From IMG/VR virus record IMGVR_UViG_3300005915_004181, positions 1-24,195 of that record: a DNA stretch of 24,195 bases. One strand, given 5' to 3'. The notes under the pieces were generated by a model. The model did no database searches and was not told the DNA's origin. It saw nothing but the letters and a program-made list of their open reading frames with translations. The position numbers and the translations under genes were made by a program. Source of the DNA: a virus. Of this stretch, positions 736-23,786 are shown piece after piece (position 1 is the stretch's first letter; each line of letters starts with the position of its first letter).

Positions 736-1276
736 TAATTGTCTCCTCTATAGCTTGAAGTCTATTTTCCATACTTCCGCTTAAAGTTTTATATTCAACC
801 CTTGAACTATCTAGGAAATACTTAATTTTATTATCAATTCTTCTCTGATAATCCTTGTCAGTAATTCTTATTGAATTATTTTCGCCACTAATCTCGAATT
901 CAATGGGAAAATAAAAATAAAAAATATCTTCCTGTCTCGATAGATATTCAATATAGGTAAAAGTCATTTTCTTAATATTCTCCAACTCCTCCTTATACTT
1001 AGAATCGCAATCTACATAAGCTAGTGTATCTATAAAACTACGACTAGATATAAAATTATCCTCATTGATATATATATTTGCACAATGAGTAAATAAGCCA
1101 ATCTGCATCTTTAAAAATCCCCCTTTATTAGTTTGAATCTGAATCTTCTCTTCTCCAGGCTTTATAAACTTTTTACTAAAAGAATCATATTCCTTTAGAC
1201 TATATTTTTCTATTGGAAACGAATTAACTAGCGCTGACTTTCCTGTTCCTTGAGCTCCACACAAGAATATCTTCAT
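725..1276 (-). CDS. P-loop NTPase, kinase-like (AAA_28/NadR-type or nucleoside kinase-like)
   Basis: A 183-residue single-domain P-loop protein. The Walker A motif is GAQGTGKS at residues 7-14, right after the first beta strand, as in small nucleotide and nucleoside kinases. A segment near residues 77-87 (SSRSFIDTLAY) resembles the 'DRs..D..aY' substrate-lid motif of NadR and AAA_28 proteins. The ATG overlaps the QueC stop as ATGA, and a GGGGGAG binding site sits inside the end of queC, so translation is coupled. Downstream is the HAD phosphatase. Possible roles are phosphorylating a nucleoside or nucleotide made or salvaged for phage DNA, or a polynucleotide 5' kinase acting with the HAD protein. 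The substrate cannot be read from the sequence. Confidence 0.6.
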   Translation of the reverse strand: MKIFLCGAQGTGKSALVNSFPIEKYSLKEYDSFSKKFIKPGEEKIQIQTNKGGFLKMQIGLFTHCANIYINEDNFISSRSFIDTLAYVDCDSKYKEELENIKKMTFTYIEYLSRQEDIFYFYFPIEFEISGENNSIRITDKDYQRRIDNKIKYFLDSSRVEYKTLSGSMENRLQAIEETISGK

Positions 1277-2025
1277 ACTTCTCCCCCTTTATATTTTTCC
1301 CAAATCTCTACTGCTTCTTCGTCTTCTTTTCCTCTACTTAAAATTTTGTCGCCTAAATTTTTCTTAATATCTTTTATCTTTTCCTTCCAATATTCTTCTG
1401 GATTATGATGAAATGTCATCTTTGTATTTTCATACGGAAGTAAATTTAACCACTTCCTAGTACAAGGCTTACAGGTTCCACAACTATGATTATCTATAGG
1501 AGAATAACAGCTAAATGATTTTTCTACTAGGTCCCCTATACTAAATCCTTTTTCTACATACTCATCGATTAGTCTCTTCTTAGTATATTCTTTATATCTT
1601 AAATCAACGTTTATTTCTCTTCCGTCGCTCCACCAAGATTTATTATAAACATAAGATAATAAATCTTGTAGCTTGCTTGCAAATGTTAAATCTTTGTCAA
1701 AACTTCTATCTCCACTTGTTGCCCCTAAAACAATTCTATCTCCGTAGTAACTACCTATTGCAACAAAAAATAAATTTCTCAATGGAACCATTGCACTTTT
1801 ATACTCAACGTCAGAAAGGTCAAGCCTCTCATCAATAATAAGATTCTTAATATGTTGTTTTTTAAGAAATTCTCTCTCTATATGAGAATATTTACTTTTA
1901 GAATCTATAAATAAAAGCGTATCAAACCTTTCCAGCTTTGATATTATATAAGAATCCATTCCTCCTGAATATAGTAGAACCGTTCTCCTTTTACACTCTT
2001 TCCCGCTAATTAAATCGAAGTTCAT
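1273..2025 (-). CDS. queC: 7-cyano-7-deazaguanine (preQ0) synthase QueC
   Basis: QueC converts 7-carboxy-7-deazaguanine (CDG) to preQ0 through an amide intermediate, using ATP and ammonia. The protein (250 residues) shows the PP-loop SGGMDS at 20-25, a PLRN motif at 81-84 and the zinc site formed by C173, C182, C185 and C188 (Cys-x8-Cys-x2-Cys-x2-Cys). The length is normal to slightly long for the family. The ATG at 2025 overlaps the stop of the DpdA gene as ATGA and is preceded by TAGGAGC. A leftward promoter motif sits just upstream, inside the end of the DpdA gene. With FolE, QueD and QueE also encoded here, the phage carries the whole pathway from GTP to preQ0. Confidence 0.93.
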   Translation of the reverse strand: MNFDLISGKECKRRTVLLYSGGMDSYIISKLERFDTLLFIDSKSKYSHIEREFLKKQHIKNLIIDERLDLSDVEYKSAMVPLRNLFFVAIGSYYGDRIVLGATSGDRSFDKDLTFASKLQDLLSYVYNKSWWSDGREINVDLRYKEYTKKRLIDEYVEKGFSIGDLVEKSFSCYSPIDNHSCGTCKPCTRKWLNLLPYENTKMTFHHNPEEYWKEKIKDIKKNLGDKILSRGKEDEEAVEIWEKYKGGEV

Positions 2026-2820: not shown

Positions 2821-3579
2821 TTACTTTTTTCTACTATTACCCCAAAGTAGTTTATGCCACTGAGGTAATATTTGTAGATTTATATCTTTCCAAAAATTCC
2901 AATCTTTATTATTTGAATTTACTATTCTTTCTACTAGTAGTCTTCCCCTGTCTAAGTATTCTATCATATTATCTGTCGAACCTTCTGGTTGTAAGACTAT
3001 CAACTCGTCTATTATTTTCAATTCGGTAATTAGGTCCTTTACTACTTGTAAGTCTCTTTCCATTGTTTCGTTTTCTTTTCTACAACCTATTACAAATTTT
3101 ATCTGGCAGTCCTTTGATTTATCTATAATCTTACTTATTACATCTTTCGAATACCAAAGACCTTCTCCCATTCCTTCTAACTTTGGTGACATTGACCAAA
3201 AATCTATAACACCAAGAAATCTTTCTTCTAATAAAGTTGCATTTGTTTCTACCTTTAATACTCCGTCGCAACACTGAGTTTCATCCTTGATTCTTTTACA
3301 TAGTTCATAAAAGATATCTAGTTCTCGTTGTGAGCGATAGAAGGGCTCTCCTCCCGTTATCGAAACGTTTCGACACGAACGTTGCCTTATATAATCTATA
3401 ATTTCGCCGACAGTGTATTCTCTTTCATCAACATTATTACGATTACTAAACTTCGTATCGCAATAATCACAATTTAAATTACAGCCAGAGGTACGAATAA
3501 ATATAAAAGGCATTCCAATGTGCCTTCCTTCTCCCTCTACAGTAGGCCCAAATAATTCACATAATTTTATTTTATCCAT
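2821..3579 (-). CDS. queE: 7-carboxy-7-deazaguanine synthase QueE (radical SAM)
   Basis: QueE is a radical S-adenosylmethionine enzyme that contracts the ring of 6-carboxytetrahydropterin to give CDG. The protein (252 residues) has the short cluster-binding motif C33-x3-C37-x2-C40, the SAM-binding GGEP at 76-79, and the typical C-terminal block ILPQWHKLLWGN. The N-terminal GPTVEGEGRHIG segment is also characteristic. A promoter motif at 3595-3607 and a GGTGAAGG site precede the ATG, so queE probably opens the queE-dpdA-queC operon. All key residues are present, so an active enzyme is likely. Confidence 0.94.
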   Translation of the reverse strand: MDKIKLCELFGPTVEGEGRHIGMPFIFIRTSGCNLNCDYCDTKFSNRNNVDEREYTVGEIIDYIRQRSCRNVSITGGEPFYRSQRELDIFYELCKRIKDETQCCDGVLKVETNATLLEERFLGVIDFWSMSPKLEGMGEGLWYSKDVISKIIDKSKDCQIKFVIGCRKENETMERDLQVVKDLITELKIIDELIVLQPEGSTDNMIEYLDRGRLLVERIVNSNNKDWNFWKDINLQILPQWHKLLWGNSRKK

Positions 3580-5330: not shown

Positions 5331-6492
5331 TTTTCTTTTTTAACTCTTTTTCTTTAGATTTTTCTTCTAATACAAAATCTCCTACTACTCCTTTCTTTAT
5401 CTCTTCTTTTTCCTCCGACAATTCTTTCTTTACATCTACTTCTTCAATTTCAACTTTTTCCCCTTCTGCCTTTTCTATATCTTTAATGACTCCAGAAATT
5501 AAAGATTTTTCTAAATTCTCAAAAATATCGTTATGATCTTTTAGCCAAGTCTTAAACTCATCTTGAGATTTAGCAACAATTTTCCCCTTGAAAGAATATG
5601 TTCTTCCTTGTAAATCCACTCCTTCTCCAAAATCATTTAAGTTTTGGGCTAAATTCCAATAAGTCTCAAACCTATCAACGGTTGCATCATTATAGAAAAC
5701 ATATTCTATAGCCCTTTGCTCAATCCCTACCTTATTCTTTTCTACTTTTACTTTTGCATTATAACCTATTACTGTATCTTTCTTAACTAAATTTTTGCCC
5801 CTTTTTACATTTACTCTTTGAAGTGCATAAAATTTTAAAGCCTTACCACCTGGAGTTGTCGTTCCTCCGCCATAACTTCCAACATTGTCCCTAATTTGGT
5901 TAATAAATAAAATTGTTGCCTTTCTTTGATTTAGAGTATTTAATACACGTAACGCTCTATTTAGCAACTTTGCTACACCAGCTATTCTTGCTTCTTCTTC
6001 CATTTCTTTATTTAACTCATCTTTTGGAGTCAAACAAGCAATGGAATCTAAAACTAAGATGTCAATGTCTTCCGTCTTTATTAAATCAATCATTAATTGG
6101 AGAATAAATTCTGCATCTATTCCTTTATTTTTCTTCTTGGCAATTTCATTAACTTGTTCCTTGTTTAGCACCAACAAATTATCATTATCTACTCCGTTTG
6201 TAGTTGCCCAACCAGGATCATATGCATCTTCAACATCTATATATGCACAAGTTTTTCCTTCTTTTTGAGCTAAAGCCATTGCCTTTAAAGCCAACGTTGA
6301 TTTACCTGAAGAAGGCGGACCATATAATTCAATAAAACCACCTTGGATGAATCCTCCACCTAATGCCCAATCTAAATTTGTTATACCTGTAGGAAACCAT
6401 TTTTTTACTAAAGAAAACCCTTTACCTATTACCTCTTTACCATATTTTTTACTCAATTTATTAATTACGGAATCTATTCTATTCTTTGTCAT
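5317..6492 (-). CDS. recA: RecA-family recombinase
   Basis: A strand-exchange ATPase of 391 residues. Walker A is GPPSSGKST at 58-66, preceded by the RecA-typical 'PTG...LD..LGGG' stretch (34-47). Walker B ends in VLDSIACL, and the NQIRDNVG...GGKALKFYA segment matches RecA loop 2 and its flank. The C-terminus is a long acidic and lysine-rich tail (after about residue 345). This is closer to bacterial RecA than to T4 UvsX. The ATG is preceded by AAGGAG with 8-base spacing. It lies upstream of the resolvase-like and Mre11-like genes, forming a recombination block in the replication operon. Confidence 0.93.
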   Translation of the reverse strand: MTKNRIDSVINKLSKKYGKEVIGKGFSLVKKWFPTGITNLDWALGGGFIQGGFIELYGPPSSGKSTLALKAMALAQKEGKTCAYIDVEDAYDPGWATTNGVDNDNLLVLNKEQVNEIAKKKNKGIDAEFILQLMIDLIKTEDIDILVLDSIACLTPKDELNKEMEEEARIAGVAKLLNRALRVLNTLNQRKATILFINQIRDNVGSYGGGTTTPGGKALKFYALQRVNVKRGKNLVKKDTVIGYNAKVKVEKNKVGIEQRAIEYVFYNDATVDRFETYWNLAQNLNDFGEGVDLQGRTYSFKGKIVAKSQDEFKTWLKDHNDIFENLEKSLISGVIKDIEKAEGEKVEIEEVDVKKELSEEKEEIKKGVVGDFVLEEKSKEKELKKKIEKN

Positions 6493-6503
6493 TATTTAAC
6501 TCC

Positions 6504-7070
6504 TTAACTTTTTATTACTTCCATGAATTCATTTCTTGGTCCTTGTTGTCCATCTTCTCCCTTTATAAAGCAGCCTCTAATTGCAGACGTTACTGTCTTC
6601 GCTCCCGGAGTTTTAACCCCTCTTAAAGACATACATGTATGTTCTGCTTCTATATAAACCATAACTCCTAGCGGTTTTAATTCTTTTTCTAAAAGATCAG
6701 CAATCTGATCAGTTAGCCTTTCTTGAATTTGTAAACGCTTTGCATATACCCTTGCTAATCTAACCAACTTAGAAATTCCTATTACCTTACCATCTGGAAC
6801 ATAACCAATATGTAACTTTCCTATAAATGGAGCAATATGATGTTCGCAATAGCTAAAAAATGGAATATCCTTTACAACAACTAGATTCTTTGTATCGCTT
6901 TCAAAAACTCTTATATGTTCTCTTGGATCTTCTCCATATCCCCCTAATGTTGCTCTATACATTCTCATAACTCTACTTGGTGTATCTTTTAATCCATCTC
7001 TACTAGGATCTTCTCCAATTCCCTCTAATAGTAATCTTACGGCCTCTTGTACTTTTTTATCATCAAACAT
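6504..7070 (-). CDS. folE: GTP cyclohydrolase I
   Basis: Type I FolE converts GTP to 7,8-dihydroneopterin triphosphate, the first step both of folate and of 7-deazaguanine synthesis. The 188-residue length is normal. The zinc ligands are C75 and H78 in YCEHHIAPF together with C146 in HTCMSLRG, and the substrate-binding IGYVPDGKVIGISK segment is intact. AAGGGA precedes the ATG. Because queD, queE and queC are also present, its job here is most likely to feed preQ0 synthesis rather than folate. It lies between dUTPase and recA. Confidence 0.95.
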   Translation of the reverse strand: MFDDKKVQEAVRLLLEGIGEDPSRDGLKDTPSRVMRMYRATLGGYGEDPREHIRVFESDTKNLVVVKDIPFFSYCEHHIAPFIGKLHIGYVPDGKVIGISKLVRLARVYAKRLQIQERLTDQIADLLEKELKPLGVMVYIEAEHTCMSLRGVKTPGAKTVTSAIRGCFIKGEDGQQGPRNEFMEVIKS

Positions 7071-7511: not shown

Positions 7512-7969
7512 TTTTTTTCTCCCTCATATGGGAATTTTATCCAACAATCTTTAGGATATTCTTCTACATATGGTATTTTTTCTAATTTTTGTTTTGCATA
7601 TATAACTGCTGAATATAATTTCAAATAAAAATTCTCACTTAGATACTCTATTACTCTAAGTACAGTATTTCCTGTATCATACAAATCATCCACTATTAAA
7701 ACTTTATACCTATCTTCTAAAGCCCCTACATTACTTATACCCTCAGCTATATTCAGTTCTCTTTGTTTTTTTTGTTTTTTATCTTCATAGCTACTTGCAG
7801 AAATTATTGAAAGTGGGAGATCTAACTTTTCGGAAATTATAGTAGCTGGAATATTTCCCCCTCTTGAAACTCCTAAAATAGTTTGAAATCCTTCATCTTT
7901 GACCTTATCCACTAATTTATAAATATCTTTAATATATTTATCCCAGGAAATATTAACAGTAGTCGGCAT
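7508..7969 (-). CDS. Purine phosphoribosyltransferase (Gpt/HGPRT-like)
   Basis: A type I phosphoribosyltransferase of 153 residues. The PRPP-binding motif is VLIVDDLYDTGNT at 90-102, with a PPi-loop SRGGNIPA near 35-42. The C-terminus (DCWIKFPYE) closely resembles the end of xanthine-guanine phosphoribosyltransferase, where a Trp-Ile-x-Phe-Pro-Trp-Glu block is typical. The likely reaction is purine base plus PRPP to the nucleoside monophosphate. The frame extends to a TTG at 7972, but the ATG at 7969 is better spaced from AAAGGG and is chosen here. It overlaps the end of queD. In this context it may salvage guanine released by DpdA exchange, which is inference. Confidence 0.85.
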   Translation of the reverse strand: MPTTVNISWDKYIKDIYKLVDKVKDEGFQTILGVSRGGNIPATIISEKLDLPLSIISASSYEDKKQKKQRELNIAEGISNVGALEDRYKVLIVDDLYDTGNTVLRVIEYLSENFYLKLYSAVIYAKQKLEKIPYVEEYPKDCWIKFPYEGEKK

Positions 7970-8342
7970 CAAATCCCTTTGTTTGTCTTTGACAATAAGT
8001 TTTCTTTAAAACAGCAGTTTCGTATACCCTGACTCTGAATTCTAACTCTTTTCTTTTATCTTTTAATATTTCTAAAAAGACTTTTGTTATATTTTCTGCT
8101 GTTCCATTAAACCCATCTAATATTTCATCAATATTTTTATGGTCAAACTTATCCTTAATTTCGCCTATTTCTCCAAAATCAAATAAAATTCCTACTTCAT
8201 CTTTTTGTTCATCTCGTCCTTGTATCCAAGCCTGCACAAGCCAAGTGTGACCATGTAAGTTTTTACATTTACCATCATATCCTTCTAAGTGATGACAGGA
8301 ATCTATAGCTGTTTCTGTAAATAGTGTTATTGTTTCATTCAT
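7953..8342 (-). CDS. queD: 6-carboxy-5,6,7,8-tetrahydropterin synthase QueD
   Basis: Converts dihydroneopterin triphosphate to 6-carboxytetrahydropterin, the substrate of QueE. The 129-residue protein has the family's zinc histidines (H17 or H18, then H30 and H32 in NLHGHTW) and the catalytic C26 in DGKCKNLHGH. The FDFGEIGEIKDKFDHKNID segment is also typical of QueD/PTPS. AAGGAAGAATA precedes the ATG. It is the first pathway gene after the single-strand binding protein gene and is separated from folE by two nucleotide-metabolism genes. Confidence 0.93.
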   Translation of the reverse strand: MNETITLFTETAIDSCHHLEGYDGKCKNLHGHTWLVQAWIQGRDEQKDEVGILFDFGEIGEIKDKFDHKNIDEILDGFNGTAENITKVFLEILKDKRKELEFRVRVYETAVLKKTYCQRQTKGFDADYC

Positions 8343-8351
8343 TATTCTTCC

Positions 8352-9278
8352 TTAGAATAAGTCTACGTCTTCTTCCTTTTTAGTCTCAGTCGGGGTTTCT
8401 TTTGCTACTCCTGGCTTCTTTTCGGAAACATCTTCTCCTCTTTCCTTCGCCGCCTTTTTCTCTACTCCATTAAGATACTTTTGAAATAATTCAGTTTGTT
8501 CTCCTGGAGTAGGAACCGTTGCCCTTCTATCTAATTCTTTTGCCAACTTATCCTTTAAAAGGTTATACTTTTCTAAAATCTTCTCTTCTACTGGAGCAGA
8601 ATCTCTTTTCGAAACAATCCACCAATTACCTAGTTGAGCATTATGAGTAATTAAGAAATCGGCCGAAGTATAAGAATAGCCTGGAATTGTAAATGCATTC
8701 TCTATGGCATTAAATACTGCAGGTCCAAATTCATAAATTTTAACAGTTCCTTCTCCATAATCGTAAACAGGTGCCAAAAATTTCGCCTTTGCAAGTTTAC
8801 CTTCTACCCTATTTTTCTTCCACATCAATGAATCATAAATCTTCCTATCTGCTTCCGTTAGTAGACTAGCTATTTCCTTCTCGAAGGTAGTTCCCTCCTC
8901 ATATATTTTTCCGTTATTTAGAACAAGAGTCCCCTTCTTTGTCTCTTCATTCACTTTTATCTCTTTTGCAATACTTGTTGTTCCTAACCACTCTAGTTGC
9001 TCCTTTATTACGGCATTTATCTGATTTACAAATTCTACGCAAAACTTACATGGACTTTCTATATCTAGATTTTCTTGTGTCATATTACAAGCAGAATTTC
9101 CTATCCCTGGGAGATATGAATGAACCTTTAAAAATTTCTTAATCAAATTACTCTCTTTATCTTCCAATAATCTTAAAGTCTTCTTTTGATATTTTTCTAT
9201 TTTCGAAACATATAAATCTAAAAAACTACCTCTATTTGAATTGTTGTTCTTTATTATAAAATCTTCTATACTTACCAT
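8352..9278 (-). CDS. T4 gp32-like single-stranded DNA-binding protein
   Basis: Probable replication single-strand binding protein, 308 residues. A zinc site H53-x10-C64-x12-C77-x2-C80 has the same layout as that of T4 gp32 (His, Cys, then CxxC), inside a domain that would be the OB fold. The C-terminus is low-complexity and charged, ending in EEDVDLF, an acidic hydrophobic tip like those that bind partner proteins in SSBs. A basic N-terminal segment could give cooperativity. AAGGAG precedes the ATG, and a promoter motif lies at 9315-9326. It follows the polymerase gene. Overall identity with gp32 looks low, so the call rests on the zinc pattern, length, tail and context. Confidence 0.75.
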   Translation of the reverse strand: MVSIEDFIIKNNNSNRGSFLDLYVSKIEKYQKKTLRLLEDKESNLIKKFLKVHSYLPGIGNSACNMTQENLDIESPCKFCVEFVNQINAVIKEQLEWLGTTSIAKEIKVNEETKKGTLVLNNGKIYEEGTTFEKEIASLLTEADRKIYDSLMWKKNRVEGKLAKAKFLAPVYDYGEGTVKIYEFGPAVFNAIENAFTIPGYSYTSADFLITHNAQLGNWWIVSKRDSAPVEEKILEKYNLLKDKLAKELDRRATVPTPGEQTELFQKYLNGVEKKAAKERGEDVSEKKPGVAKETPTETKKEEDVDLF

Positions 9279-9314
9279 TTTGTTATTCTCCTTTTTATTT
9301 TTTATTTGTCTAAT

Positions 9315-9326
9315 TATTATAGTTAC
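9315..9326 (-). promoter_or_regulatory. Leftward promoter motif before the SSB gene
   Basis: The minus strand reads GTAACTATAATA, with TATAAT at 9321-9316, overlapping the stop codon of the polymerase gene. It is one base shorter than the other five copies of this motif. It could drive the SSB-queD-recA operon. Confidence 0.5.
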
Positions 9327-12300
9327 TTTTCTGGAAATTTATAGAGTTTTGTTAAATTAAGCATTTTCATTTCATGAAAATAACTAAGTTTCCCCTTAAA
9401 AAAAATGATATCATCTTCAAATAGGGCATTTTCGTAAGAACCAAAATCTTTCTCTATTCTTCTTATTGACTCCGAAAAACACATTAATAATATCGCACCT
9501 CCCTGTAAATCCTCTAATCTTATTTTTAACATATCCTTTCCAGCTTTTGTTTTTTTTGCTTCAATACTTTTAATTATACCGTAAAAATTAACACTTCCTT
9601 TTTTTATATCATCATAGTGAGTAAGTTTCCCTACGCTTATAAATTCATTTATACTTTGTATTTTTCTCTTCTCCTCTGCAGAAATAAAACTTACATTATA
9701 GCGTAATAGGGATTTTTCAATTCTACTTAACAACTTACCTATATTTTCTTCATCTCCTATAACTAGGTTATAAATTGGATATTCTTCTACAATTTCTCCA
9801 ATTGTAGCCGAATCCTTAAATGCATTTGAAAAAATTAAACCAGATATTGTCTTTTTGGTTACGCTTCTACCTAATTTCTTTTTTAAAAGATCAGCTACAG
9901 AATCATATGGTTTATTTTCATCCAATATTTTGGCAGTTTTTTCTCCTACTCCCATTATATTAGATAATCCATATCTTATTGAATCTCCATCTATTGTAAA
10001 GAGTATTCCCGACTTATTAATATCGGGCCTCTTAATACTTATTCCAAATCTTTCCATTTCGCTAAAAATTCTTGGATAATCCTTTTCGTCTTTAGTATTA
10101 GATAACAAAGAACAGAAGAATTCTTTTGGATAATAAGTTTTTAGCCAGGCACATTGATATGCAGTAATTGCATAACATAAAGAGTGAGATAAATTAAAGG
10201 CATATCCTGAGAATTTTCTCATAATCTCCCAAATCTCTTTTGCCTTGTCTCTTGTACAATTATTTTCAATTGCCCCGGCCATAAATTTTTTTCTTAGTTC
10301 GTCCATTAAACTATCAGATTTTCCTTCTAAGCTTCTATCTAACTTTACCAATATCTTTCTTAAATCATTAGATTCGACTTCTGTTAAATTCCCTAACTTC
10401 ATCCCTGTTTGCATAATTTGTTCTTGATATATTAATAATCCATATGTTCTCTTTGAAATTTCTTCCAACCTAGTATCTAAATACTTAACAACTTCTTTTC
10501 CGTTTTTTCTTTTAACATATGTTGAATGAAAATTATTCGCCAATGGTCCTGGTCTAAATAAAGCTATAATATCGGCTACTTCCAAAATCTTTAATGGCTT
10601 TACCTGCTTACAAAGATCCTGCATTCCGATTTCAGAAAATTGAAAAACTCCTAAAAAATTTCCCCTGTGAAAAACCTCCTCATAGACCTTTACATCATCA
10701 AAGTCTATATTATCTGGATTAATTTTCTTCCGTAATTTCTTGTATTTGCTTTTATCTTCTTTAGATATAAGCTTAATAGAGTCATTTATAATTTTAAGCG
10801 TATTCAGCCCTAATAAATCAAATTTTACAAATCCCATTTTACCTAGATTTTTATTTACCACTCCTTCTGTATAAGCTGTTTGAGTCTTTTCTCTCACAAC
10901 TTGTAGGGGCATCTTCTTTATTAAATTATCTACAATCAAAATTCCTGCGGCATGTTTACCTACTTGACGAATTTGTCCATAAAGAGCCTTTATAATTTGC
11001 TCCGCTCCCTTATTATCCTCAATAAATTTCCTAAAGGTAGAAGACTTTAAATAATCCTCGTATGTTAAAAAAACTCCCCCACTTTCTTCATTATTCCCCT
11101 TAGTATTAATTATTTCTCTATCTATTGATTTAGTCAATTGATTAGAGTAAAAAAATCTATCACCTGTATCACCCATTATATCAAAAACCTTACAGTAGTC
11201 CTTTAATAACGCTTTCATTTGATACGTTCCATATGTAGAAATATACGGAACATTTGTTTCTCCATATTTTTTTCTTAAGTGTTCCTTTATTACTTCTGGA
11301 TCTTCAAAATCTGTATCAATATCTGGTAATTCCTTTCTCGATAAATTTATAAATCTAAAGAACAATAAATCATATTTAACTGGATCTACTTTTGTTATAT
11401 CTAACAAATAACAAACTAAAGCCCCAGCCGCTGAGCCTCTACCTACTCCTGATAACATTTGAGTCTTTGCATATTCAACAATATCCTTATATACTAAAAA
11501 GTAATCATATATTTTCTTTTCTTTTAAAATCTCTAATTCCCTATCTAATCTCTTTGAATAAATTTCATAATTTTCTGATATATCTTTATTACTCTTTCTT
11601 TTACTTTCTAATTTCTTCCTACATAATTCTTCAAGTTCTGTAAAGGAGTCCCCACTTAGTGTCTCATACTTAATCAATTTGGTAGAAGTATCTATTTCAA
11701 TATCCTCTATTTTTTCATCTATCTTTAGTGTATTTTTAAAACATTCATCAATTATTTCCCTAGATAAATAGTCATGCCCCATTCTTACTGCTGATTCATA
11801 ATTTTCTTCATCTGTTTTTAAATATAATTCTCTACAATCAATTTCTTCATCATTTATATTCGCAGTATCTAAAATTTCCACTTCCGTAGCACTAGTAATA
11901 CTTTTATTTACCGATTTACTCTTAATAGCCATCATTACATCTCTGGCAAGATTATGACTTCCTTCAATATAGTGACAATCTCCAGTAATAATTACTTCTA
12001 TATTAAATTCTTTTGCCAACTTTAACATTATATTGTTTGAAATCTTTTGGTCAGGAAGCTCATTTATCTGTAATTCAAAGTAAAAATCATCCCCAAAAGT
12101 ATTCTTAAAAAATTCTATATCCTCTCTCGCCACTTCTTTTATTTCATCATACCCCTTATTCTCTATGGAAAGATCTAGAATAATTTGTTGTATTATTCCT
12201 GCAATACAGGCAGTTGAACAGATTAATCCTTCCTTATACTTCTCTAGTAAGGCTCTATCTAGCCTTGGTTTATAATAAAGTCCATCTCTTTGAGCTACAT

Positions 12301-12661
12301 ATATTAGTTCTTGTAAATTTTCTAAACCTTTTTTATTTTTTGCCAATAAAATTAAATGATAGTACTTTCTTAGATTCTTATTCTTTTTTATTGCCTTATT
12401 TTCTTTTGCTATCTCATATTCTTCCTTCCATTTATCTAAACTTCTAATAAAATAAGATTCACAACCATATATAGGTTTTATTCCCCCAAATTCTCTTGCT
12501 GCCAGATAGAGATCAGCGACCATATTCATATTACCGTGATCAGTTAGGGCTATAGATTTAAATCCTAACTTCTTGGCTCTTTCTAATATATCCCTTGGAT
12601 ATCCTATTGAATCTAAAACACTGTAGGTTGAATGACCGTGAAGATTTACATATTTTTGCAT
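9323..12661 (-). CDS. dnaE: DNA polymerase III alpha subunit, DnaE type, with intact-looking PHP domain
   Basis: A C-family replicative DNA polymerase of 1112 residues. The N-terminal PHP domain keeps a full set of candidate metal ligands: H8, H10, D17, D41, H42, E68, H102, C152, D228 and H230. The palm has GVGRGSAAGAL (405-415) and the PDIDTDFED block (D447, D449), with D615 in FVKFDLLGLN as the third catalytic aspartate. Later come a helix-hairpin-helix region (IMGVGEKTAKIL) and a C-terminal OB fold that starts near residue 1010. No DnaQ/PolC-type exonuclease is fused. AAAGGG precedes the ATG, and a 444-base noncoding leader lies upstream. This is presumably the phage's main replicase. The full ligand set suggests the PHP domain may be an active proofreading nuclease. 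Confidence 0.95.
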   Translation of the reverse strand: MQKYVNLHGHSTYSVLDSIGYPRDILERAKKLGFKSIALTDHGNMNMVADLYLAAREFGGIKPIYGCESYFIRSLDKWKEEYEIAKENKAIKKNKNLRKYYHLILLAKNKKGLENLQELIYVAQRDGLYYKPRLDRALLEKYKEGLICSTACIAGIIQQIILDLSIENKGYDEIKEVAREDIEFFKNTFGDDFYFELQINELPDQKISNNIMLKLAKEFNIEVIITGDCHYIEGSHNLARDVMMAIKSKSVNKSITSATEVEILDTANINDEEIDCRELYLKTDEENYESAVRMGHDYLSREIIDECFKNTLKIDEKIEDIEIDTSTKLIKYETLSGDSFTELEELCRKKLESKRKSNKDISENYEIYSKRLDRELEILKEKKIYDYFLVYKDIVEYAKTQMLSGVGRGSAAGALVCYLLDITKVDPVKYDLLFFRFINLSRKELPDIDTDFEDPEVIKEHLRKKYGETNVPYISTYGTYQMKALLKDYCKVFDIMGDTGDRFFYSNQLTKSIDREIINTKGNNEESGGVFLTYEDYLKSSTFRKFIEDNKGAEQIIKALYGQIRQVGKHAAGILIVDNLIKKMPLQVVREKTQTAYTEGVVNKNLGKMGFVKFDLLGLNTLKIINDSIKLISKEDKSKYKKLRKKINPDNIDFDDVKVYEEVFHRGNFLGVFQFSEIGMQDLCKQVKPLKILEVADIIALFRPGPLANNFHSTYVKRKNGKEVVKYLDTRLEEISKRTYGLLIYQEQIMQTGMKLGNLTEVESNDLRKILVKLDRSLEGKSDSLMDELRKKFMAGAIENNCTRDKAKEIWEIMRKFSGYAFNLSHSLCYAITAYQCAWLKTYYPKEFFCSLLSNTKDEKDYPRIFSEMERFGISIKRPDINKSGILFTIDGDSIRYGLSNIMGVGEKTAKILDENKPYDSVADLLKKKLGRSVTKKTISGLIFSNAFKDSATIGEIVEEYPIYNLVIGDEENIGKLLSRIEKSLLRYNVSFISAEEKRKIQSINEFISVGKLTHYDDIKKGSVNFYGIIKSIEAKKTKAGKDMLKIRLEDLQGGAILLMCFSESIRRIEKDFGSYENALFEDDIIFFKGKLSYFHEMKMLNLTKLYKFPEK

Positions 12662-12731
12662 TATCTATCCCTTTCTTTTATTTTAGTTATTATTTCATTA
12701 TTATTTTAGGGTTTATTTTGTATTAAAATAT

Positions 12732-12828
12732 CTTTCCGGAGTACCAATAGAGGTTTTTCACACTTTTTATAAGCGGTTTTTACCTCTAATATGTTATGCT
12801 ATTTAGTCAAGATTAGTAGCGTATTATA
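12732..12828 (-). repeat. Noncoding repeat element, copy B
   Basis: In plus orientation the shared blocks run CTTTCCG (12732-12738), GTAC (12741-12744), ACACTTTTTATAAG (12760-12773), GTCAAGAT (12806-12813), TAGCGT (12817-12822) and ATTATA (12823-12828). The first three blocks match copy A in order and nearly in spacing. This copy can form a hairpin in which AGAGGT (12749-12754) pairs with ACCTCT (12782-12787). Confidence 0.6.
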
Positions 12829-12901
12829 CTTGTTGTTATTTCCCTATTGACCATCCTAATAGGTTGGCGTATCTTACTTACATTTCGTAAAATACTGGGG
12901 A

Positions 12902-12960
12902 CGATAGAAACCATCTTTATTAAAATTTTAATTTAATAAAAACTTACTATAAAACTATCG
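12902..12960. repeat. Imperfect inverted repeat between the two elements
   Basis: Outer arms CGATAG (12902-12907) and CTATCG (12955-12960) enclose a perfect nine-base inverted repeat, TTTATTAAA (12916-12924) with TTTAATAAA (12932-12940), leaving a seven-base loop. It could fold as an RNA hairpin on either strand or serve as an AT-rich unwinding site. It is not followed by a T-run, so it does not look like an intrinsic terminator. Confidence 0.55.
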
Positions 12961-12985
12961 CGCTTAAATCCTTAAATATTTTATT

Positions 12986-13110
12986 CTTTCCGTGTGTACT
13001 GATGTTTTGTTTTACACTCTTTACAAGAATTACGTGAGTGTCAAGATGACATGAAACTTGGGCTTTACGTTTGTTTAAAATATAGCGTCTAAACTTCGCT
13101 CTTTATTATA
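12986..13110 (-). repeat. Noncoding repeat element, copy A
   Basis: Same block order as copy B: CTTTCCG (12986-12992), GTAC (12996-12999), ACACTCTTTACAAG (13014-13027), GTCAAGAT (13040-13047), TAGCGT (13083-13088), ATTATA (13105-13110). ACACTC (13014-13019) can pair with GAGTGT (13036-13041), a hairpin at a place corresponding to that in copy B but with different sequence. The last two blocks have unlike spacing in the two copies and may match by chance. Confidence 0.6.
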
Positions 13111-13116
13111 GTATAC
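13104..13116 (-). promoter_or_regulatory. Leftward promoter motif at the end of the primase gene
   Basis: The minus strand reads GTATACTATAATA, with TATAAT at 13110-13105, overlapping the primase stop codon. It would start a transcript through the noncoding element into dnaE. It is identical to the queE site. Confidence 0.55.
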
Positions 13117-13984
13117 TTTCTAGCTCATATTGTATCTCTTCTTTGCTTAATTCCCCGAGATCACTTTTACCCGTAATCCACTGAAAACTTTTTACTTCAA
13201 TTTTATCTTCCAGTCTTTTCCTCATATCATCTGCACAGACTCTACCTGCCTCATCATTATCTGTTGCAATTATAATTTCATTAAAGTATTGTAGAATTAA
13301 TTTCTCCTGTTCTCTACTCATCTTACTCCCCATAATTCCTACACAATCTTTAAATCCTTTGTCATAGTAGTTAATTACATCGAATTGACCTTCTGTTATA
13401 ATACCTTTATTACCAACTACCTTATCTATTCCGAATAAGGTTAGACTTTTATTTAGCCCATAGCTGTATTTATATTTTGGCTCAACAAACTGTCTATAAA
13501 CAACTCCCATTAATTTTTCATTCCAATGACGAATAGGAATAACATATCTGTTATTTAATCTATCGTACCTAATTTCGAACAACTTTTGTATATCCTTATT
13601 AGATATTCTCTTGTTAATATAGTCCCCTAGTTCAAGTGAATATTTTGATAAAATTCTTTCCTCTAGATATTCAATGTGTTTAACTTCATTTTTCTCTACT
13701 TCCAAAGACTGAATATATTCATTTACAGTCAGAGGATTTATTTCATTGTTAAAAGTAACTCCATGATGTTCTGCTATTTTTCCAAAAAAGGACTTAAAAC
13801 TTTTACCAGATTCCCCGCACTTTGCCGAAAAGCAATTATATTTTCCCGTTTTTATGTTTATTCCAAAGCTTGGATTTATCTCGTCATGAAACGGGCAGCA
13901 GCAAATTAAATTATCCCTATCATCAATTTTATGATTTTTTAAAATATCCAATTCTACTAGCTTTTTTAAATTTTCTACTTCCAT
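13106..13984 (-). CDS. DnaG-like primase, short form
   Basis: A 292-residue primase with an N-terminal zinc-binding domain and a Toprim domain. The zinc site is C30-x2-H33 (CCCPFHDE), then C51 and C56; the last pair is C-x4-C, wider than the usual CxxC. The Toprim motifs are ITEGQFD (E198, D202) and ATDNDEAG (D242, D244), the metal-binding residues for RNA primer synthesis. It lacks the C-terminal helicase-binding domain of bacterial DnaG, so it is about half the usual length, as in several phages. The ATG lies inside the end of the helicase gene (10-base overlap) with only a weak binding site, so coupling is likely. Confidence 0.88.
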   Translation of the reverse strand: MEVENLKKLVELDILKNHKIDDRDNLICCCPFHDEINPSFGINIKTGKYNCFSAKCGESGKSFKSFFGKIAEHHGVTFNNEINPLTVNEYIQSLEVEKNEVKHIEYLEERILSKYSLELGDYINKRISNKDIQKLFEIRYDRLNNRYVIPIRHWNEKLMGVVYRQFVEPKYKYSYGLNKSLTLFGIDKVVGNKGIITEGQFDVINYYDKGFKDCVGIMGSKMSREQEKLILQYFNEIIIATDNDEAGRVCADDMRKRLEDKIEVKSFQWITGKSDLGELSKEEIQYELESIL

Positions 13985-16020: not shown

Positions 16021-16033
16021 TATTATAGTTGAC
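16021..16033 (-). promoter_or_regulatory. Leftward promoter motif, distal, overlapping the rightward promoter
   Basis: The minus strand reads GTCAACTATAATA, with TATAAT at 16027-16022. Bases 16029-16033 are shared with the -35 hexamer of the rightward promoter, so both probably cannot be used at once. Confidence 0.5.
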
Positions 16034-16057
16034 TTTTGAGTGTATTTATTATATAAT
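16029..16057 (+). promoter_or_regulatory. Rightward sigma-70-type promoter for the small-gene operon
   Basis: TTGACT (16029-16034), 17-base spacer, TATAAT (16052-16057). It is about 28 bases before the first rightward ATG, which has GAGGAGGTG upstream. A second copy of the same design lies at 16880-16908. Confidence 0.8.
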
Positions 16058-16085
16058 ATGTATATAATAAATGAGGAGGTGAAAA

Positions 16086-16322
16086 ATGAAAATAACATTA
16101 AAAGTAGTAGAAGATAGAATCACTTTTATTAATAATCAGTTAGAACAAAGAGGTAGAAGTTATAGGTTTTCAATAGAAAAAGATTTAACAACTTACAGAT
16201 TTTTTATTATTAATGCACATGATGGTGCAACTGATTTTACATTAGCACATCTTAAAAATTTGCGAGAAATAGATAGTTATTTAGCTGGCGTTATGATGGG
16301 ATTATCTGGACAAAGTATCTAG
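16086..16322 (+). CDS. Small protein of unknown function
   Basis: A 78-residue protein, the first gene of the rightward operon, with a near-perfect binding site (GAGGAGGTGAAAA). I do not recognise it. It begins with a strand-helix pattern (MKITLKVVEDRITFINNQLEQRG), contains a run of alternating hydrophobic residues (TTYRFFIINAHDG), and ends with a glycine-rich tail. There is no signal peptide, membrane segment or cysteine pair. Its position just after a strong promoter suggests early expression. The TAG stop is also the start of a structured element at 16322-16355. Confidence 0.75.
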   Translation: MKITLKVVEDRITFINNQLEQRGRSYRFSIEKDLTTYRFFIINAHDGATDFTLAHLKNLREIDSYLAGVMMGLSGQSI

Positions 16323-16355
16323 CTCTTTATCGCTCCTCTTCAAAAGAGGGGGAGC
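16322..16355 (+). other. Stop-codon-linked hairpin/pseudoknot element, copy 1
   Basis: Begins at the G of the upstream TAG stop. CTCTTT (16323-16328) is complementary to AAAGAG (16343-16348), and GCTCCTC (16332-16338) to GGGGAGC (16349-16355, one T-G pair), in the interleaved order of an H-type pseudoknot. A plain hairpin of ten pairs (16332-16341 with 16346-16355, including two T-G pairs) competes. No T-run follows, so it is not a normal terminator. The 12 bases TAGCTCTTTATC (16320-16331) recur in copy 2. Confidence 0.5.
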
Positions 16356-16384
16356 CATTAAGGAACTAAAAAGGAGAAAATTAA

Positions 16385-16618
16385 ATGAAAAATACAAAAA
16401 AAGCATTTGAAGAATTTCTTAATAAAGAATTCCCAGTAGCAAAACATAAACACAAAAATTGGCGCTATGGAAATACAAAACGAGATTATGGCACATATTT
16501 AAGAAAACAAGACCCTGGAATGTTTGAAGAAAACTATCAAAGATGGATAGAAGACGAATGCAAATATAATTTTGATTCTGGAATAAAAAAGGAGGTGAGA
16601 AATGAAAAGAGAGCATAA
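16385..16618 (+). CDS. Small basic protein of unknown function
   Basis: A 77-residue charged protein starting at an ATG with AAGGAG upstream. It is rich in Lys, Arg, Tyr and Trp (KHKHKNWRYGNTKRDYGTY, then ENYQRWIEDE), with no membrane segment or cysteine pair. I do not recognise the family. It overlaps the next small gene by 17 bases; that gene's GGAGGTGAGA site lies in its last codons. Likely part of the early small-gene set. Confidence 0.7.
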   Translation: MKNTKKAFEEFLNKEFPVAKHKHKNWRYGNTKRDYGTYLRKQDPGMFEENYQRWIEDECKYNFDSGIKKEVRNEKRA

Positions 16619-16748
16619 AAAAGAATTAGAAAAAAGGATTAAAGAATATACAGATTATGTTGGCAGGCTTTTTTATCATAAGGATTTAGAAGACAAAAGA
16701 GTCGCTAAGATATATAAATATTATCTTGCTCTTAAAAAAAGCAAATAG
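16602..16748 (+). CDS. Very small basic protein (48 residues)
   Basis: ATG at 16602-16604 with GGAGGTGAGA immediately upstream, ending at TAG 16746-16748. The protein is strongly basic and helical (MKREHKKELEKRIKEY...), ending in ALKKKSK-like lysines. It may bind nucleic acid or a host protein; function unknown. The stop codon is the start of the second structured element. Confidence 0.65.
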   Translation: MKREHKKELEKRIKEYTDYVGRLFYHKDLEDKRVAKIYKYYLALKKSK

Positions 16749-16788
16749 CTCTTTATCAACCGCCTAGCCTAAAGAGCATTGGGCGGTT
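16748..16788 (+). other. Stop-codon-linked pseudoknot element, copy 2
   Basis: Begins at the G of the upstream TAG stop, as in copy 1. Stem 1: GCTCTTT (16748-16754) with AAAGAGC (16771-16777). Stem 2: AACCGCC (16758-16764) with GGCGGTT (16782-16788). Linkers are ATC (3), TAGCCT (6) and ATTG (4). The stem 2 sequence is largely unlike that of copy 1 but is again fully paired, while stem 1 and the first linker are the same. Confidence 0.55.
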
Positions 16789-16827
16789 CCTTAAAAAGCT
16801 AGAAAGAAAGAAAGGAGGGGAGAAAAG

Positions 16828-16872
16828 ACGGAACAAGATTATATAGATTGGTTATTAGATTGTGATATATAA
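16828..16872 (+). CDS. Possible 14-residue peptide with an ACG start
   Basis: A very strong binding site (AAAGGAGGGG, 16811-16820) is followed at normal spacing not by ATG, GTG or TTG but by ACG, opening a frame TEQDYIDWLLDCDI that stops at 16870-16872. Either a non-standard start is used, or this is the remnant of a gene whose ATG changed to ACG. Low confidence. Confidence 0.2.
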   Translation, partial: TEQDYIDWLLDCDI

Positions 16873-16879
16873 GTAGCAG

Positions 16880-16908
16880 TTGATTTTTAGAAAAAAGTAT
16901 TATATAAT
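16880..16908 (+). promoter_or_regulatory. Second rightward sigma-70-type promoter
   Basis: TTGATT (16880-16885), 17-base spacer, TATAAT (16903-16908). The layout matches the promoter at 16029-16057, including GTTGA(C/T)TTTT and TTATATAATA. It precedes the 54-residue membrane protein gene by about 26 bases. Confidence 0.7.
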
Positions 16909-16934
16909 AAGTTGGTAATAAAGGGGGGATTAAA

Positions 16935-17834: not shown

Positions 17835-18122
17835 ATGAAATATGGTATAGGAAAACATAATAAAGGGGTAATGAAAGGTGGATTAAAATACAATTTGAAT
17901 AAAACCCGAAATACAGTTATAATGTTTAATAGAATTTTTTGTGAGTTGGGTCAATCATGTTATAACTGTAGAAGAAAGTGTATAAATAAAGCCTTGATAA
18001 TCACAGCTGGAAAACAAAATACAAGTGGAGGGGGCAACAATGGGAGAATGTATAGAGATTTTGAAACTAGTAGAGAAAGTACAAAAAAACAACAACGAGG
18101 AGGCTCTCAAAAAACTTATTGA
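17835..18122 (+). CDS. Small cysteine-rich protein overlapping the sigma-factor gene
   Basis: A frame of 95 residues with ATG at 17835 and AAAGGA upstream. Residues 36-49 contain a cysteine cluster (CELGQSCYNCRRKC). The last 28 or so residues are read from DNA that also encodes the start of the sigma factor in another frame, and they are low in complexity; an 83-base overlap is long for this genome. The first 60 residues look like a plausible small protein; the tail may be incidental. The family is not recognised. Confidence 0.45.
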   Translation: MKYGIGKHNKGVMKGGLKYNLNKTRNTVIMFNRIFCELGQSCYNCRRKCINKALIITAGKQNTSGGGNNGRMYRDFETSRESTKKQQRGGSQKTY

Positions 18123-19107
18123 TAAGTATGAAAACATGGGCTCACTTTTTAACAAAGTAAGTTTAGAACCAGAGGACAAAAAACAAATTATAACAATTGC
18201 AATTTATACAGCAGCAATGAAATATAAAAAATCAAAAAAAATAAAATTCTCAACTCATTTATGGCAATATCTAAGATGGTTACTTACAGGACAGGACAAT
18301 ATGAATCGAACAGGAAAGAAAGTTAATCCATTAATTTTTTCAGGAAAGCCAAATCTAAAAAAATCATTAAGGGGAGATAAGGCTAAAAACGTACATATCT
18401 CCCTATTCAAAAAGGGAATTGTAAAGAAAGAATATGTCTCCCCTGATAAATCTTTTGGACTATTAAAGGATGTTATAAATGATATAGGCTTTTATAAAAA
18501 TAATCTCTCCCTATTTAATCAAGACGAATTATCCTTTTTTACTCAAAGAGATATTGAGTACTACGAAAGGGTAAGTGATAGCGGGAAACTTAATACTTCT
18601 AACTTAAGAAGAATAAGAAAAATGAACTTTTTTCTATTAAATCACTTAGTTCCCTTTTACGCAGAAAATGAATTTTTCTTACAATTTGAGAATGAATTTG
18701 AAAATGGAATACGTGAACCTCAAAAAAATAATAATTTTGAATATTCTATTTTTTACGAAGATGCAGTATTTCAAAATTTAACAAATCTAGAAAATTTTAT
18801 TATGAACTATCTTTATAATTTTGATACATATATAGATACACTATATGAACAATTATTAAAGTTTAGAAAAATAACTAAAATTAAATTTAATAAAAAAATA
18901 GCTCCAACAATAATACGTATTTCTAAAAATGGAACGCAGAAAATAATAAAGGAGAAGGAAATAAAAAAGAATGATAAAATAATTAAAAAATATAAATCAG
19001 GTCATAAGATTTTAGCGGATATATTAGACATAAAAATCAATAATGTACGCATTATAGAAAAAAAGTGTTTAAAGAAAATAAAGCAAAAAATGAAAGAAAA
19101 GGAGTAA
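18040..19107 (+). CDS. Divergent sigma-70-family RNA polymerase sigma factor
   Basis: A 355-residue protein. Residues 10-82 fit sigma region 2: VEKVQKNNNEEALKKLIDKY, then EDKKQIITIAIYTAAMKY, then KIKFSTHLWQYLRWLL, the counterpart of the 'kFsTya.~wIr' core and -10 recognition helix. The last 40 residues (KSGHKILADILDIKINNVRIIEKKCLKKIKQK) match the region 4 helix-turn-helix. The roughly 230 residues between are unlike any region 3 I know. The frame extends to a GTG at 18025, but the ATG at 18040 is chosen because GGAGGGGG lies just before it. It probably redirects host RNA polymerase to phage promoters, perhaps the repeated leftward motif; the target is unproven. Confidence 0.7.
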   Translation: MGECIEILKLVEKVQKNNNEEALKKLIDKYENMGSLFNKVSLEPEDKKQIITIAIYTAAMKYKKSKKIKFSTHLWQYLRWLLTGQDNMNRTGKKVNPLIFSGKPNLKKSLRGDKAKNVHISLFKKGIVKKEYVSPDKSFGLLKDVINDIGFYKNNLSLFNQDELSFFTQRDIEYYERVSDSGKLNTSNLRRIRKMNFFLLNHLVPFYAENEFFLQFENEFENGIREPQKNNNFEYSIFYEDAVFQNLTNLENFIMNYLYNFDTYIDTLYEQLLKFRKITKIKFNKKIAPTIIRISKNGTQKIIKEKEIKKNDKIIKKYKSGHKILADILDIKINNVRIIEKKCLKKIKQKMKEKE

Positions 19108-22258: not shown

Positions 22259-23786
22259 CAAAAAAGTCGTCATCAAGCTTAGTTCTGGTGATGATTTTTA
22301 TACAATTATAGAGAAAATAAAAAAACATTTATCGCCATACGAATATAACCCTCAAACAAAATTATGGACTACAGAAAGAATGAATTTGTTAATCTTTAAA
22401 CATGTTTTTAAAGATGATAGAGTTTTTTATGAAAAAGATGTTTTAGATCTTATAAATAAGCAAGATCATTATGTTAAATATTTAGATAATTTAAAAAATA
22501 CTGAATATGACAAACCAATGAGAGATATTAGCTTAGAATTATTTAAACATCAAATGACAGCTATTAATTTTCAATTAAACGAAACCAATTCTGGTCTATT
22601 CGATGAACAAGGTCTTGGAAAAACCTTAACTACAATAAGCACATTACAGGTATTATTCGATGAGAAAAAAATTGAAAATATTGTTGTTATTTGTCCAAAT
22701 ACATTAAAATATAATTGGAAGGTTGAAATAGATAGTTTTTCTTCACTAACAAGTGCAATAATAGAAGGTTCAAAAAAACAAAAAATAGAATTGCTTGATG
22801 AAAACGCAAATGTTTATATAACAAACTTCGAATCATTAATTATTAGAAAAACAAAAAAATCAAAAGTAGATGCTAAAAGCTTTCAAGAAAAATTTGAAAA
22901 AATAATAACTGAAAAAACATGTATAGTAATTGATGAGGCACATAGAATAAAATCTGGTAATTCAAAAATTTCTAAATTTTTAAGAAAAGTTGGAAAATTA
23001 ACAAACTATAAGTATGTTTTAACTGGTACTCCAATAGCTAATAAACCTGAAGATATTTTTTATTTATTTATGTTTTTGGATGGGGGTAAATTATTAGGTA
23101 CAAATTATTATAAATTTCTTAAACAATATTGTATTTTAGGAAATAGCTTTTCTGATTTTGCCATAGTTGGATATAAAAACTTAGATAAGCTTAAATTTTT
23201 AGTTGGATTAAAATCTTTAAGAAGGTTGAAAAAAAATGTTCAAAAAAATTTACCACAAAAAATATTTCAGAATAGAATTATTGAATTATCACATGAACAT
23301 AAAAAATGTTATGAAAATTTAAAAAAAGAAATTTTAACAATTGTCAAAGAAGACAATTCAGAAAGTATAATAAAATCTTGTTTAATGAGATTGATCCAAT
23401 GTTCAAGTAATCCTCGACTTTTACAACAAGAGATTGATAGTTCAAAAATAAAAGAATTAGACAATTTATTAGAAGAACACATAGAAAGATCTGGAAATAA
23501 AGTAATTATTTGGACTAATTTTATAAATAATTTTCCATTATTACTAGAACGTTATAAAAAATATAATCCACTGTATATTAATGGAAGTGTAGCAATTGAC
23601 CAGAGACAAAAAAACATCCTGGAATTCCAGAATGTTAATAAAGTAAAATTGATAATATGTAATCCACAAGCAGCAAGTACAGGAATCACACTAACTGCAT
23701 CAAGTGTTGCTATTTATTTAGACAGAGGATTTAATCTCGTTGACTATTTACAAAGTGTTGATCGTATTCATAATAGGACAAGATAA
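22239..23786 (+). CDS. SNF2-family DNA helicase, frame broken within motif VI
   Basis: An SF2/SNF2-type ATPase. Residues 1-75 are a small N-terminal domain resembling the HARP-like region of SMARCAL1-type annealing helicases (YNPQTKLWTTE). Motif I is DEQGLGKT (122-129), motif II DEAH (232-235, in VIDEAHRIKSGNSK), motif III TGTPIANKPED, and the C-terminal lobe has VIIWTNF, NPQAASTGITLT and DYLQSVDRIHN (start of motif VI). The frame then runs into a TAA at 23784-23786 after 515 residues. The expected continuation, IGQDK...LIGKNTIDE, lies in another frame from 23773. The start overlaps the zinc-ribbon gene. Likely role: fork or recombination-intermediate remodelling, like T4 UvsW. Confidence 0.85.
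   Translation: MNVSLDNKKVVIKLSSGDDFYTIIEKIKKHLSPYEYNPQTKLWTTERMNLLIFKHVFKDDRVFYEKDVLDLINKQDHYVKYLDNLKNTEYDKPMRDISLELFKHQMTAINFQLNETNSGLFDEQGLGKTLTTISTLQVLFDEKKIENIVVICPNTLKYNWKVEIDSFSSLTSAIIEGSKKQKIELLDENANVYITNFESLIIRKTKKSKVDAKSFQEKFEKIITEKTCIVIDEAHRIKSGNSKISKFLRKVGKLTNYKYVLTGTPIANKPEDIFYLFMFLDGGKLLGTNYYKFLKQYCILGNSFSDFAIVGYKNLDKLKFLVGLKSLRRLKKNVQKNLPQKIFQNRIIELSHEHKKCYENLKKEILTIVKEDNSESIIKSCLMRLIQCSSNPRLLQQEIDSSKIKELDNLLEEHIERSGNKVIIWTNFINNFPLLLERYKKYNPLYINGSVAIDQRQKNILEFQNVNKVKLIICNPQAASTGITLTASSVAIYLDRGFNLVDYLQSVDRIHNRTR

Follow-up and report, generated by a model that had tools for sequence, protein, structure and literature searches.

The window analysed here, a complete virus record of 24,195 bases, carries on its plus strand an operon of small ORFs in which TAGCTCTTTATC occurs in two exact copies, at 16320–16331 and 16746–16757. 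The copies are non-tandem, with a spacing of 426 nt, and each opens one of two structural elements, referred to as elements 1 and 2. The genes and promoter-like sites around them are as follows.

16029..16057, + strand: promoter-like site TTGACT-17-TATAAT upstream of the small-ORF operon (prediction, 11/12 consensus matches)
16086..16322, + strand: 78-aa ORF of unknown function, whose TAG forms the first 3 bases of element 1 (weak phrog_15513 match)
16385..16618, + strand: 77-aa ORF of unknown function, whose start lies 27 nt past predicted cut 1
16602..16748, + strand: 48-aa ORF, whose TAG forms the first 3 bases of element 2
16880..16908, + strand: second promoter-like site TTGATT-17-TATAAT, 3′ of element 2 (prediction)

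As the initial annotation had observed, the same bases stand right at two TAG stops, since TAG opens TAGCTCTTTATC in both copies. Shared 12-mers are common in this AT-rich sequence, where 254 raw 12-mer repeats were counted, thus the 12-nt identity counts only when taken together with the matching position of both copies in the window's two strongest hairpins. Downstream of element 2, a ribosome-binding-like AGGAGGGGAG is present, but no ATG, GTG or TTG start was found. In the 16814–16872 segment, the strong AGGAGGGGAG is followed by an ACG (16828) opening a 14-codon frame that ends in TAA, which may be a gene using an unusual start codon or the decayed remnant of a tiny gene. Two promoter-like or leader segments beginning with TATTATATAATA, one before the first small ORF (16047–16076) and one after element 2 (16898–16927), share 80% identity and, judged from their sequence, look as if a promoter–gene unit had been duplicated.

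Folding with ViennaRNA gave both elements a common nested shape, in which a 9-bp lower helix and a 10–11-bp upper helix are separated by an internal loop that is asymmetric, having 2 nt on its 5′ and 3 nt on its 3′ strand. The components are listed below, all on the plus strand; the cut positions are predictions made by analogy.

16320..16368, + strand: element 1, candidate RNase III processing hairpin
16320..16329, + strand: lower helix 5′ arm TAGCTCTTTA, 9/10 positions paired with 16359–16368
16330..16331, + strand: internal loop 5′ side, TC
16332..16355, + strand: upper hairpin GCTCCTCTTC / GAGGGGGAGC, 10 bp, loop AAAA
16356..16358, + strand: internal loop 3′ side, CAT; predicted cut after 16358 (analogy with T7 R1.1)
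16359..16368, + strand: lower helix 3′ arm TAAGGAACTA
16746..16801, + strand: element 2, candidate RNase III processing hairpin
16746..16755, + strand: lower helix 5′ arm TAGCTCTTTA, 9/10 positions paired with 16792–16801
16756..16757, + strand: internal loop 5′ side, TC
16758..16788, + strand: upper hairpin AACCGCCTA / TGGGCGGTT, plus GC/GC past an AT bulge
16789..16791, + strand: internal loop 3′ side, CCT; predicted cut after 16791 (analogy)
16792..16801, + strand: lower helix 3′ arm TAAAAAGCTA

In dot-bracket form, copy 1 reads '(((.((((((..((((((((((....))))))))))...)))))).)))'. The downstream arms TAAGGAACTA and TAAAAAGCTA, each of which pairs with TAGCTCTTTA at 9/10 positions, had been missed in the initial annotation. 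When the downstream 45 nt were shuffled, an equally good 9/10 arm match arose in 0.41% (copy 1) and 0.54% (copy 2) of the shuffles, which gives a joint probability of about 2e-5 for both lower-arm matches, and the window-wide background for such a match was 0.68% of positions. The upper hairpin of element 1 had a pairing probability of about 1.0 in all contexts tested. The lower helix was robust with flanks of up to 100 nt and was out-competed in 200-nt AT-rich contexts; despite this competition, the local hairpin would be expected to be favoured by co-transcriptional folding.

When every 56-nt stretch of the whole window was folded on either strand, the two loci ranked first and second, with best energies of −22.8 (copy 1) and −21.3 kcal/mol (copy 2) against a window mean of −4.4 and an SD of 3.0. 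At copy 2, folding is similarly strong on the minus and the plus strand (−21.3 and −18.5 kcal/mol, respectively). This ranking indicates that something structural is present, which agrees with the earlier proposal of a real RNA fold. The specificity of the shape was assessed with a descriptor requiring a lower helix of 9–10 positions with at most one mismatch, an internal loop of 1–4 nt on the 5′ side and of the same length or one base more on the 3′ side, an upper helix of 9 positions with at most one mismatch, an apical loop of 3–17 nt and an energy of −16 or lower. A first, looser version had been dropped for this stricter one due to its large numbers of hits in the GC-richer T7. The strict descriptor found exactly two places in the window, namely both copies, and two hits in 40 dinucleotide-shuffled windows (0.05 per window); in T7 and T3, all 11 of the 11 hits with a 3′ loop strand one base longer than the 5′ strand (5′ side at least 2 nt) were R sites, as judged by the T3 annotation and the matching T7 positions, while the remaining hits had internal-loop strands of equal length; and 519 kb of other viral loci, GC-rich ones included, gave three hits with this asymmetry, a rate of about 0.14 per 24 kb. 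All of these numbers are descriptive and no blind test, since the thresholds were set with knowledge of the copies and of T7, and the one-base asymmetry used as a filter came to attention only later.

Considering these results, we assign both elements, with a rough probability of 0.74, to the class of T7 R-site/SP82-type RNase III processing sites, that is, to an established type of element, here in a phage about which little is known. According to this reading, transcription from the promoter-like site at 16029–16057 would produce a message for several small proteins from an operon of small phage genes on the plus strand, presumably expressed early. Each element would form a two-storey hairpin in the transcript, starting at the stop codon of the upstream gene. 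Host RNase III would bind the interrupted helix of roughly 20 bp and cleave it where the internal loop ends on its 3′ strand (after approximately 16358 and 16791), so that the upstream mRNA would retain the stable upper hairpin as a protective 3′ end and the downstream message would begin shortly before its ribosome-binding site, in the case of element 1 27 nt before the ATG at 16385. T7 R0.3 and R1 presumably leave similar distances, 35 and 33 nt, at what we take to be their cut positions. The benefit for the phage may be the separation and stabilization of the messages, and a role in mRNA 3′-end formation or protection had rightly been named among the candidates in the initial annotation. 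Transcription across the sites, cutting by RNase III and the exact cut positions are all predicted, the last by analogy with T7 R1.1. Against this reading weigh the failure to find a homologue with such an element, the miss of the copies by a covariance model of T7/T3 sites, the loss of the lower helix in 200-nt contexts, the missing usual start codon after element 2 and the strong minus-strand fold of copy 2.

An alternative, which we hold to be unlikely, is that the hairpins are left uncut and serve as protective or insulating structures that block 3′ exonucleases or insulate neighbouring genes, their likeness to RNase III sites being incidental. The very stable upper stem, its position between a stop codon and the next ribosome-binding site and the difference between the two upper-stem sequences, which is expected if stability alone matters, are consistent with this explanation, but it leaves the shared lower-arm sequence, the 9/10 lower helix and the asymmetric internal loop unexplained. 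It is rather improbable that TAGCTCTTTATC acts in addition as a stop-codon-linked switch, by which cutting would report on the translation of the upstream gene. In such a switch, ribosomes terminating at TAG may keep the lower helix open, with CUCUUU either paired with the loop as a pseudoknot or covered, while under sparse translation the full RNase III site may form. Slightly less credit still is given to recognition of TAGCTCTTTATC, presented by the stem, by a phage or host protein such as a translational repressor or an antitermination factor. A 12-nt identity within otherwise different elements and the presence of two sites in one operon would fit a protein-binding site; against it stand the mostly paired state of the 12-mer in the best fold, the accessibility of the next gene's ribosome-binding site, which is not sequestered, and the lack of a candidate partner.

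The initial annotation had interpreted the loci as twin interleaved pseudoknots, in which CTCTTT pairs with a downstream AAAGAG. An AAAGAG does lie in each apical region, yet the interleaved pairing is not supported as the fold: the nested hairpin is favoured by about 9 kcal/mol in copy 1 and 3 kcal/mol in copy 2 (−21.8 versus about −13 kcal/mol and −19.6 versus about −17 kcal/mol, respectively, with a standard pseudoknot penalty of 9.6 kcal/mol that is not a value of the folding tool). Two interleaved complementary segments can be written as in H-type pseudoknots, but the loop lengths and energies are unlike those of this class; the third loop has no bases in copy 1, as described before, and 4 nt in copy 2, which is too short to span a stem of 6–7 bp. 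Moreover, CTCTTT itself sits in both copies inside the 10-nt arm that pairs at 9/10 positions with the segment just downstream. The 6–7-nt complement of CTCTTT in each apical region (joint loop-shuffle probability 0.0019) speaks for pseudoknots, but a 6-nt match to the 12-mer appeared in 5.1% (copy 1) and 3.6% (copy 2) of shuffled loops, and in copy 1 the match results for the most part from the arms of the stem itself (CTCTT/AAGAG). The second stem does pair in both copies, as had been noted (GCTCCTC/GGGGAGC with one G-U pair, and AACCGCC/GGCGGTT). The covariation claimed for the fold holds for this inner stem, which is common to both models, and fails for stem 1 of the pseudoknot, both sides of which are identical between the copies. 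No further homologues with paired stems, whose absence had been proposed to speak against the pseudoknots, were found in IMG/VR viral contigs. We therefore consider twin H-type pseudoknots, even if alternating with the hairpin as ribosomes reach the stop codon, very unlikely. An intrinsic terminator or attenuator is the least plausible explanation: a GC-rich hairpin does follow the stop codon, but there is no U-tract behind either hairpin on either strand and the terminator scan found none here, in line with the earlier note that a T-run is missing. Type III toxin–antitoxin RNA repeats (ToxI-like), weighed because decoys had been mentioned and because they too are short structured repeats, were rejected, as the copies are non-tandem and the neighbours match no toxin family.

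Searches for relatives of the putative RNase III sites covered both sequence and structure. Scans of IMG/VR for exact patterns that combine the 12-mer with either its pseudoknot or its lower-stem partner gave only chance matches without the inner stem, protein scans found no relatives of the neighbouring small ORFs, and the Rfam search returned nothing. The scan of genome contigs gave only a distant match of 33%. The only close relative is one viral locus (L006), with 65% identity in the ligase and 67% in DnaB, from which the whole small-ORF block with both elements is absent. In its 8440–9510 segment, compared with 18025–19107 of the window, the gene that occupies the position of the sigma-like gene sits on the opposite strand.

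Elsewhere in the window, four genes on the minus strand probably constitute a 7-deazaguanine DNA-modification cluster.

1273–2025, minus strand: QueC gene
2821–3579, minus strand: radical-SAM (QueE-like) gene
6504–7070, minus strand: GTP cyclohydrolase I gene
7953–8342, minus strand: 6-pyruvoyl-tetrahydropterin-synthase (QueD-like) gene

The 2022–2804 region between the QueC and QueE-like genes gave no Pfam match; its product may be a DpdA-like transglycosylase. A terminator-like hairpin with a T-run lies at 23613–23636 on the minus strand, within the helicase ORF.

With the elements assigned to RNase III processing sites, what had been claimed as a novel RNA fold joins an established class, and mRNA processing by RNase III in the T7/SP82 style is extended to a phage lineage that is divergent, AT-rich and lacks close named relatives. 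The features seen both in the window and in SP82G, namely a lower helix that is fixed and includes a stop codon, an upper stem that is free to vary and a 3′ internal-loop strand longer by one base, also provide a simple search rule for unannotated phage genomes, in which such sites are rarely marked. The pattern suggests a possible link of translation termination to RNase III cutting.

The nearest named relatives of the window's ligase are those of SPO1-like Bacillus phages including SP82G (32%). According to the citing article, the RNase III of B. subtilis cuts early mRNA of SP82 (Panganiban and Whiteley 1983, cited in PMC12502629). This enzyme cuts duplexes of 10–36 bp and has many preferences in common with its E. 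coli counterpart (PMC11780869). On the minus strand of the SP82G genome (L052, OM236513), the descriptor detected three hairpins at 12605–13580 and a pattern search added a fourth, the set of four lying at 12602–13579. All four, which are unannotated in OM236513, are located between small genes of an early-type operon and combine an invariant GTTGCTAG/ATGGAGCC lower part with differing upper stems, and in at least two of the four the TAG stops of sp82g_31 and sp82g_32 are inside the lower arm. The design is the same as in the window, with a fixed lower part, a free upper stem, a stop codon in the 5′ arm and identical geometry, whereas the GTTGCTAG/ATGGAGCC consensus differs from the window sequence. 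These hairpins are likely to be the published RNase III sites of SP82.

When the intergenic regions of T7 were folded, R1 proved to be the closest in shape: its diagram, '((((.(((((..(((((((((....)))))))))...))))).))))', is near-identical to that of copy 1, and the annotated R1 of T3 also matches the copy 1 fold. The other sites of T7 and T3 (R0.3–R18.5) likewise consist of two helices of about 9–10 bp, an asymmetric 2/3 (or 4/5) loop and a small apical loop, from which copy 2 of the window deviates by its larger, bulged apical part. The T7/T3 sites have no sequence in common with the window copies. A covariance model of the T7/T3 sites did not find the window copies, but since it missed most of the SP82G hairpins as well, it cannot decide the question and is no general detector; it is too sequence-bound to be useful. 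T7 R1.1 is cleaved at nt 5887 (PMC8708148); in the predicted R1.1 fold, this nucleotide is the final one of the three that form the 3′ strand of the internal loop. Cleavage is shown for T7, while in the window it is predicted from the fold and this analogy. Most T7/T3 sites lie at or just past a stop codon, a short distance ahead of the next gene, as element 1 does here; in the T3 record, in which RNase III recognition sites are annotated, R0.5, R4.7 and R18.5 each include part of a stop codon or all of it, and the start of R1 lies 3 nt past one. Both window copies show the hallmarks of this class: two stacked helices of about 9–10 bp with the longer internal-loop strand on the 3′ side (2 nt/3 nt), a position between operon genes with a TAG at the start of each element and, for element 1, a predicted cut 27 nt before the ATG at 16385, and, as in SP82G, several sites per phage that have the sequence of their lower helix and internal loop in common and their upper stem free.
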